From IMG/VR virus record IMGVR_UViG_3300001472_000062, positions 1 through 35,377 of that record: 35,377 nucleotides of DNA. One strand, 5' to 3'. Positions 11,986-12,763 of this stretch are shown one piece after another. How positions within the stretch are numbered: position 1 is the first letter of the stretch; each line of letters opens with the position of its first letter. A program made the translations under genes and the position numbers. The notes beneath the pieces are model-generated. The model did no database searches and was not told the DNA's origin. It saw only the letters and a program-made list of their open reading frames with translations. The stretch is from a virus.

Positions 11986-12588
11986 ATGACAAAGCAACAT
12001 GACGAACAAATGGAAAAAGAAATTGTTGAACTTGGTTTAACTGCGCCTCGCGTAACACTTGATTCAATCAAAGCGCTAATGGCGAAAGTAGAATACAAGG
12101 TTCACGTTGTTGAAGGAACCACCACAACTCACGCCGTTGCGCTTCTTGATGGTTTTAGCCTGGCTATTGGCATGAGCTCTTGTGTTGACCCGGCTAACTT
12201 CAATGAAGAATTAGGCCGCAAGTATTCAATTATTGACGCTGAAGAGAAGGCTCAGAAAAAATTATGGGAACTTGAAGGTTATCGCCTGAAGTTCTCACCA
12301 CTTGGCCACACAATTCAAAGCATAGGTTCATTTGGTTGGGCGGTTGAGCGAATGAAGTCAGGCGCTAAAGTTGCTCGCTGTGGTTGGAATGGTAGTGGAA
12401 TGTTTGCTTATTACGTTCCTGCTAATTCGTATCCGGCTGAACGTGGCGCAAATGTTCACGGTATTTTCAAAGATGATCTGGTTCCATATCGCCATTATCT
12501 TGCATTGAAAACGGCGCAAGATGATGTTGCTACCTGGTCCCCTTCAACAAGTGACGCACTAGCTACTGACTGGGAAGAAGTTGAATAG
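11986..12588 (+). CDS. Gp49-like / DUF2829 (Tad2-like) fusion protein, candidate Thoeris antagonist
   Basis: A 200-residue two-domain protein. Residues about 20-103 match the phage Gp49 family (APRVTLDSIKALM, then CVDPANFNEELGRKYS, then KLWELEGYRLKF). Residues about 114-200 match DUF2829: SFGWAVERMKSGAKVARCGW, then NG, a Y-Y-V strand, a long loop, HYLALKTAQ, and the diagnostic end WSPSTSDALATDWEEVE. DUF2829 includes Tad2, a phage protein known to bind and sequester the cyclic-ADP-ribose signal of the Thoeris defence system. The G-W-N-G and W-x-x-S-x-x-D-x-x-A-x-D-W residues of that domain are present. Gp49 proteins have no known activity. Counter-defence is therefore likely for the second half and unknown for the first. 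It sits at the end of the early operon, where accessory genes cluster. Confidence 0.85.
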   Translation: MTKQHDEQMEKEIVELGLTAPRVTLDSIKALMAKVEYKVHVVEGTTTTHAVALLDGFSLAIGMSSCVDPANFNEELGRKYSIIDAEEKAQKKLWELEGYRLKFSPLGHTIQSIGSFGWAVERMKSGAKVARCGWNGSGMFAYYVPANSYPAERGANVHGIFKDDLVPYRHYLALKTAQDDVATWSPSTSDALATDWEEVE

Positions 12589-12607
12589 CGTTATCAAGGT
12601 TGTATTT

Positions 12608-12763
12608 ATGCCTAAGCTGTTAAAGGCTCAAAGGCATGAATACTTAATTAACACCGACAACTACAAAACCGCTGAAGAGATAGCAAGTAAGCGGTTGTTA
12701 TTTGATGGTCACAGCAAGAAAGACTTCAAAGAAGTTGTTATAGCTCAAGTATTTGATAAATAA
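12608..12763 (+). CDS. Small hypothetical protein (51 aa)
   Basis: A 51-residue basic protein beginning MPKLLKAQRHEYLINTDN, then YKTAEEIASKRLLFDGHSKKDFKEVVIAQVFDK. It is a strand-helix-helix size unit without a recognised family. ATG 12608 is chosen over an upstream TTG at 12581 because AAGGTTG lies at suitable spacing and the TTG lies within the preceding gene. It ends 7 bases before the endolysin start, so it belongs either to the end of the early operon or to the lysis transcript. Confidence 0.55.
   Translation: MPKLLKAQRHEYLINTDNYKTAEEIASKRLLFDGHSKKDFKEVVIAQVFDK

Follow-up and report, generated by a model that had tools for sequence, protein, structure and literature searches.

The window analyzed here, the whole 35,377-base virus record IMGVR_UViG_3300001472_000062, most closely resembles 37-kb phages of Vibrio crassostreae. 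One of its genes codes for a Gp49 domain and a DUF2829 domain on a single chain, and the question raised by this locus is what the two halves do together. A preliminary description made from the letters alone had read the DUF2829 part as a candidate Tad2-type sponge for the Thoeris signal gcADPR, and Gp49 as a phage protein without function that works with the same signaling pathway or positions the sponge.

Architecture of the fusion gene

Pfam searches of the fusion open reading frame (ORF) identified Phage_gp49_66 (PF13876; E=1.9e-14, 54.3 bits, cut-off 27) and Tad2-like (PF11195; E=4.1e-21, 75.7 bits, cut-off 25), both well above their cut-offs. The Gp49-like and DUF2829 units of the preliminary description were thus borne out, as were its two signatures, GWNG and W-x-x-S-x-x-D-x-x-A-x-D-W, which are found in the Tad2 half (GWNG; WSPSTSDALATDW). 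PADLOC and NCBIfam gave no match. An AlphaFold2 (AF2) model was built from a 79-row alignment, in which Acb4-only rows all lie on residues 1–103 and Tad2-only rows all lie on residues 115–200, and has two confident domains joined by a floppy linker at about residues 104–113 (pTM 0.56). Helices of the Acb4 half span residues 3–16, 25–32, and 74–103, and its strands span residues 36–41, 47–54, and 57–65. The Acb4-Tad2 architecture of this ORF is real and not a product of chance. Coordinates are given in Table 1.

Table 1. Features of the fusion locus, in window positions
Feature	Positions	Strand	Basis and remarks
acb4-tad2 fusion gene	11986..12588	+	ATG start, 200 aa; ORF call, Pfam, AF2 model with mean pLDDT 92
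Acb4 domain (PF13876, Gp49), aa 23–102	12052..12291	+	Pfam, profile match to 9e4w, Foldseek, VIA-align; predicted CBASS cyclic-dinucleotide sponge
Linker, aa 103–114 (FSPLGHTIQSIG)	12292..12327	+	Low pLDDT at 104–113; linker comparison
Tad2 domain (PF11195, DUF2829), aa 115–199	12328..12582	+	Pfam, PDB, Foldseek; predicted Thoeris-signal sponge, ModTad2-like
Inserted Tad2 module and linker, 284 bp missing from closest relative	12298..12581	+	blastn of the locus against L007
Upstream gene, 79 aa	11745..11984	+	Phage 41E34.2 (L003) has a near relative at this position
Downstream small gene (MNSVIKVV...)	12581..12763	+	TTG start overlaps the tad2 end

The closest relative, a 36-kb contig (L007), has 94.7% identity to the locus up to window position 12297 and resumes at 12582, with 10 bp in place of the window's 284 bp. 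Its acb4 is a separate 106-aa gene, as in L006, and lone acb4 genes in sister phages are 98% identical to the acb4 half of the window. Comparison of this half with L007 gave a dS of 0.24, a dN of 0.008, and a dN/dS of about 0.03, indicating strong purifying selection. The Tad2 half is identical to that of another relative, L008, at 80 of 88 amino acids, and 31 of the 41 nucleotide differences between them are at third positions.

A chimeric contig is an unlikely source of the fusion because the Tad2 insert sits in frame precisely where acb4 ends, because the 3' junction (GTTGAATAGCGTTATCAAGG) is identical in phage 41E34.2, and because isolate phages and bacterial genomes contain fusions of the same architecture. 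The record is a contig of an uncultivated virus for which no second record with the same exact Acb4-Tad2 join was found, and in one relative (L031) acb4 is cut down to about 36 codons. It is nevertheless scarcely credible that the fusion is an artefact of assembly or a remnant in decay, given the clean junction, the two domains that are intact in the AF2 model, the isolates with the same architecture, and the pattern of few amino-acid changes and many third-position changes in both halves.

Predicted ligands of the two halves

Gp49 is not a protein without function. SPO1 gp1.3 is the sponge Acb4, a member of PF13876 with a solved dsRBD-like structure, which assembles as a tetramer, sequesters 3'3'-cGAMP, and blocks CBASS; all eight PF13876 homologues tested bound this signal (PMC11722364). 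In phage N4, gp48 is both necessary and sufficient for triggering Panoptes (PMC12657230) and is thus a working Acb4. The Pfam name "N4 Gp49" is misleading, as RefSeq numbers the PF13876/Acb4 protein gp48 and the Tad2/DUF2829 protein gp49 (L005:2881-3734).

A profile of N-terminal halves matched the Acb4 crystal structure (PDB 9e4w) with an E value of 3.5e-8; the window half alone matched no PDB chain with phmmer, so that 9e4w was reached by the homologue profile only. The model of the window half matched 9e4w with a Foldseek probability of 1.00 and a VIA-align Z of 8.2 over 75 residues. Rv2632c and Rv1738, which share the dsRBD-like fold, score as high as Acb4 against this model in VIA-align, and structure comparison also found likeness to dsRBDs and to a domain of RF2. 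The modelled fold supports an Acb4 identity but does not single Acb4 out, since dsRBD-like folds score similarly.

Ten residues contact the ligand in SPO1 Acb4. Three (F48, F62, and N63) are kept in the window and I66 becomes L76, and the others are altered (K36 to T46, E49 to S58, Y57 to V67, T70 to Y80, K81 to E95, and V56 also). The majority of PF13876 and the active N4 gp48 depart from SPO1 Acb4 much as the window does, and the window equals N4 gp48 at nine of the ten positions, the tenth (SPO1 E49) being S/T. Because its pocket letters match those of this working Acb4, the N-terminal half likely binds cyclic dinucleotides, with an exact base preference that is not readable from the residues.

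The altered contacts, together with the oligomerizing dsRBD-like fold of Acb4 (PMC11722364), could be taken to mean that the Tad2 half alone is an active sponge and that the Acb4 half is a scaffold setting oligomeric state, abundance, or place. We consider this improbable in view of the agreement with active N4 gp48, the binding of cGAMP by every homologue tested, and the 98%-identical acb4 that stands alone in sister phages under a dN/dS of about 0.03. The fusion does tie Gp49 to nucleotide-signal immunity, as the preliminary description had supposed. Because PF13876 is a family of CBASS sponges, the Acb4 half most likely acts on this second pathway and is not a mere positioner of a Thoeris sponge.

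For the Tad2 half, the nearest solved relative is ModTad2 (9eib and 8v3e; E ~1e-24), with 46 of 86 residues identical (53%), compared to 35% for SPO1 Tad2 and 36% for HgmTad2. The ModTad2 complex with hisADPR (9eib) also ranked first in Foldseek (E=1.3e-9). MoTad2 is stated to inhibit type II Thoeris through His-ADPR binding (PMC13299392). His-ADPR is the more likely ligand of the window half because its nearest solved relative is this hisADPR complex, at 53% identity against 35% for SPO1 Tad2. Confidence in His-ADPR and type II Thoeris over gcADPR is moderate because the 65-row Tad2 tree, in which the window Tad2 and that of L008 form a supported clade near ModTad2, does not fix their order relative to ModTad2.

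The Thoeris sponge of the preliminary description therefore stands as a Tad2-family C-terminal half, and its ligand is more likely His-ADPR than gcADPR. Binding of gcADPR (2'cADPR/3'cADPR; type I Thoeris), with the Acb4 half still a CBASS sponge, is unlikely but deserves some weight. SPO1 Tad2, which binds gcADPR, and HgmTad2 belong to the same family and were solved with cADPR isomers, and all Tad2 structures fit the window half about equally (VIA Z 11–12.5), but the sequence is clearly closer to ModTad2, and 9eib was solved with hisADPR.

In the HgmTad2/SptTad2 subgroup, the region of the beta2-beta5 insertion holds a cyclic dinucleotide (PMC12043709). The insertion of HgmTad2, about 15 residues long, is missing from the window Tad2 as a gap in the alignment, which would place this half outside the cyclic-dinucleotide-binding subgroup. 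Acb4 would then supply what the window Tad2 lacks, namely a hold on CBASS signals.

HgmTad2 was deposited as AcrIIA7, a type II CRISPR inhibitor, and the N-terminal half resembles dsRBDs and an RF2 domain, so a Cas9 inhibitor (AcrIIA7-like) or an RNA or ribosome binder working through the dsRBD-like half was considered in place of a signal binder. This is very improbable: the same AcrIIA7 protein was crystallized with 1',2'-cADPR and cGG, the nearest relative of the C-terminal half is ModTad2 and not AcrIIA7, and Acb4, with its dsRBD-like fold, has itself been described as a signal sponge (PMC11722364).

Proposed module exchange at the locus and recurrence of the linkage

Close relatives differ in what this locus carries, which is acb4 alone, Acb4-Tad2 (the window), Acb4-RyR, or an N-terminal domain followed by Tad2. 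In Vibrio phage FGH, an Acb4 half with 82% identity to that of the window is joined to an RyR domain (PF02026, aa 164–209, E=1.4e-11), and L048 carries a like Acb4-RyR fusion. In L008 and 41E34.2, Tad2 stands behind a different N-terminal domain. The window linker KFSPLGHTIQSIGSF resembles the Acb4-RyR linker of FGH (KFSPLATTIEQIAKV), with a shared SPLxxTI stretch. The downstream gene starts with ATG directly after acb4 in L006 and L007; in the window it starts with TTG and overlaps the tad2 stop, which would be a by-product of module exchange. The fusion would have arisen by such exchange in a variable anti-defense locus, where RyR was perhaps replaced by Tad2.

Phage RyR proteins (the RyDEP family) hydrolyze or sequester the Thoeris signals 2'/3'cADPR, with catalytic or ligand residues H75, W78, H100, and D117 (PMC13232231). 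The RyR part of FGH keeps all four at the RyDEP spacing (H-x2-W, H+25, D+17). The strongest indirect argument comes from this swap: because the swapped-in family hydrolyzes or sequesters 2'/3'cADPR, the C-terminal slot would be an anti-Thoeris slot and the fusion functional rather than structural.

Acb4 loci were surveyed by scans with an Acb4-only query, unbiased as to partner, which yielded 80 viral and 60 genome loci. The query for the collection scan was a five-sequence Acb4 alignment, a nine-sequence version being too diverse. Among the 140 loci are three Acb4-Tad2 fusions (Neobacillus, Ruminococcus, and Bacillus) and one Acb4-RyR fusion. A Tad2 gene overlaps acb4 or lies less than 100 bp away in 10, an RyR gene does so in three, and Tad2 is somewhat further away in two. 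Acb4 is thus linked to Tad2 or RyR at 19 of 140 loci (~14%), a lower bound since many flanks are short. Other searches added Acb4-Tad2 fusions in Pasteurella phages Pm86 and Pmp13, their relatives, and Alcaligenes phage QDWS595, as well as Acb4-RyR fusions in Vibrio phage 1.151.O and Salmonella Kuttervirus SenALZ1. Two more Vibrio phages gave one-piece matches over most of the query. In phage N4, gp48 (Acb4) and gp49 (Tad2) overlap by one base. Both arrangements that the preliminary description had proposed to look for, the same two domains in one protein and separate Gp49 genes beside Tad2, therefore exist.

The Acb4 tree points to at least five separate fusion events. In this tree (139 rows), six changes are required to account for the seven distinct Acb4-Tad2 fusions, and well-supported branches force five or more of these; the Tad2 tree independently also requires six, of which four or more are forced. 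Both trees have fewer than 90 columns and come from a quick search. A second partner swap was identified in a close pair, L098 and L121, where Acb4 is adjoined by a Tad2 gene in one and an RyR gene in the other. Across 50 Acb4 contigs, five also carry Tad2, four of them with the two genes within 1 kb, which random placement equalled in 5 of 200,000 trials. RyR is present in six Acb4 contigs, at Acb4 in two and about 6 kb away in four related phages, so that by the contig-distance test alone the Acb4-RyR link is weaker than that of Acb4 with Tad2. The Acb4-Tad2 fusion itself is uncommon, but Acb4 recurs in linkage with Tad2 or RyR.

Several further arrangements were observed among these relatives. 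Acb4-RyR fusions were recorded at L002:3001-3669 (Vibrio phage vB_ValP_FGH), L048, L208, and L211, one of which is a Salmonella Kuttervirus protein. In Alcaligenes phage QDWS595 (L040:1940-3055), a degenerate Acb4-Tad2 fusion (gp05) is directly followed by a well-conserved Acb4 gene (gp06). Long Tad2 proteins (L003:3648-4157, L004:3177-3677, and L005:3252-3734) have a common N-terminal domain with no Pfam match in these three. At L130:2333-2950, with no Tad2 in the ORF, Acb4 is fused to an N-terminal accessory domain typical of long Tad2 proteins, with the pattern GTK..A.PM..RGW..GYLVEY..GYISWSP. At L187:2414-3139, Acb4 is followed by a likeness, noted by eye, to a MazG-type nucleotide pyrophosphohydrolase, for which Pfam gave no confirmation. 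PF21825 (crAss001_48) or close look-alikes form the C-terminal end of at least nine Acb4 proteins (L050, L070, L083, L084, L089, L113, L174, L040 gp06, and L041), where other Acb4 proteins carry Tad2 or RyR. To our knowledge, PF21825 has no known function, and it is a candidate anti-signaling or oligomerizing module.

Proposed action and relation to known systems

The window protein is probably an Acb4-Tad2 bifunctional sponge, anti-CBASS and anti-Thoeris, as judged from the binding activities of its relatives. The N-terminal Acb4 domain would sequester cyclic dinucleotides from CBASS cyclases, and the C-terminal Tad2 domain, held by some 10 residues of flexible linker, would sequester a Thoeris signal of the ADP-ribose type, for which His-ADPR is the likeliest candidate. 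During infection both activities together would keep CBASS and Thoeris effectors off. The two tetramer-forming domains may pack as one 88-kDa tetramer or as a network. We put forward more tentatively, as possible, that a modular anti-signaling cassette is built on Acb4 as its constant half, to which an exchangeable Tad2 or RyR is welded or overlapped so that one locus acts against two signaling systems. If so, C-terminal partners such as PF21825 would be candidates for uncharacterized anti-signaling modules, and fusion to Acb4 would offer a route to finding new anti-defense domains. The locus also enables a direct test of whether encounters with CBASS and Thoeris in combination are frequent enough for a linked countermeasure to be selected. 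A cost is predicted as well: Acb-type sponges trigger Panoptes (PMC12657230), and the fused protein could couple Thoeris evasion to Panoptes sensitivity.

The Acb4 and Tad2 families are already known, as are single proteins that counter both CBASS and Thoeris (Tad1 and some Tad2; PMC12043709). No description of Acb4-Tad2 or Acb4-RyR fusions was found in the main texts of the literature searched; PMC11722364, which lists 1,331 homologues, mentions in its main text only several Acb4 homologues with "additional extensions," which it does not name. Compared to Acb4 (SPO1 gp1.3 and N4 gp48), the window half is alike in family HMM, alpha-beta-beta-beta-alpha fold, and the F48/F62/N63 pocket core (with I66 to L), but it replaces the SPO1-specific K36, E49, V56, Y57, T70, and K81 and is fused to Tad2. 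Compared to Tad2, and ModTad2 especially, the other half is alike in family HMM, signature, fold, and 53% identity, but it is the C-terminal part of a two-sponge chain and is without the beta2-beta5 insertion of HgmTad2. The RyDEP/RyR proteins (PF02026), which are missing from the window, occupy the same C-terminal slot behind the 82%-identical Acb4 half of FGH and act on cADPR signals (PMC13232231), but they have an unrelated fold and are glycosidases or sponges; the second module swaps between a sponge (Tad2) and an RyR domain of a hydrolase-or-sponge family. Also among the closest known systems are Tad1, HgmTad2, and SptTad2, in which one protein counters CBASS and Thoeris signals (PMC12043709). 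Those sponges against two immune systems use pockets of a single fold, whereas in the window protein two unrelated sponge folds are fused, a joining that has occurred repeatedly.
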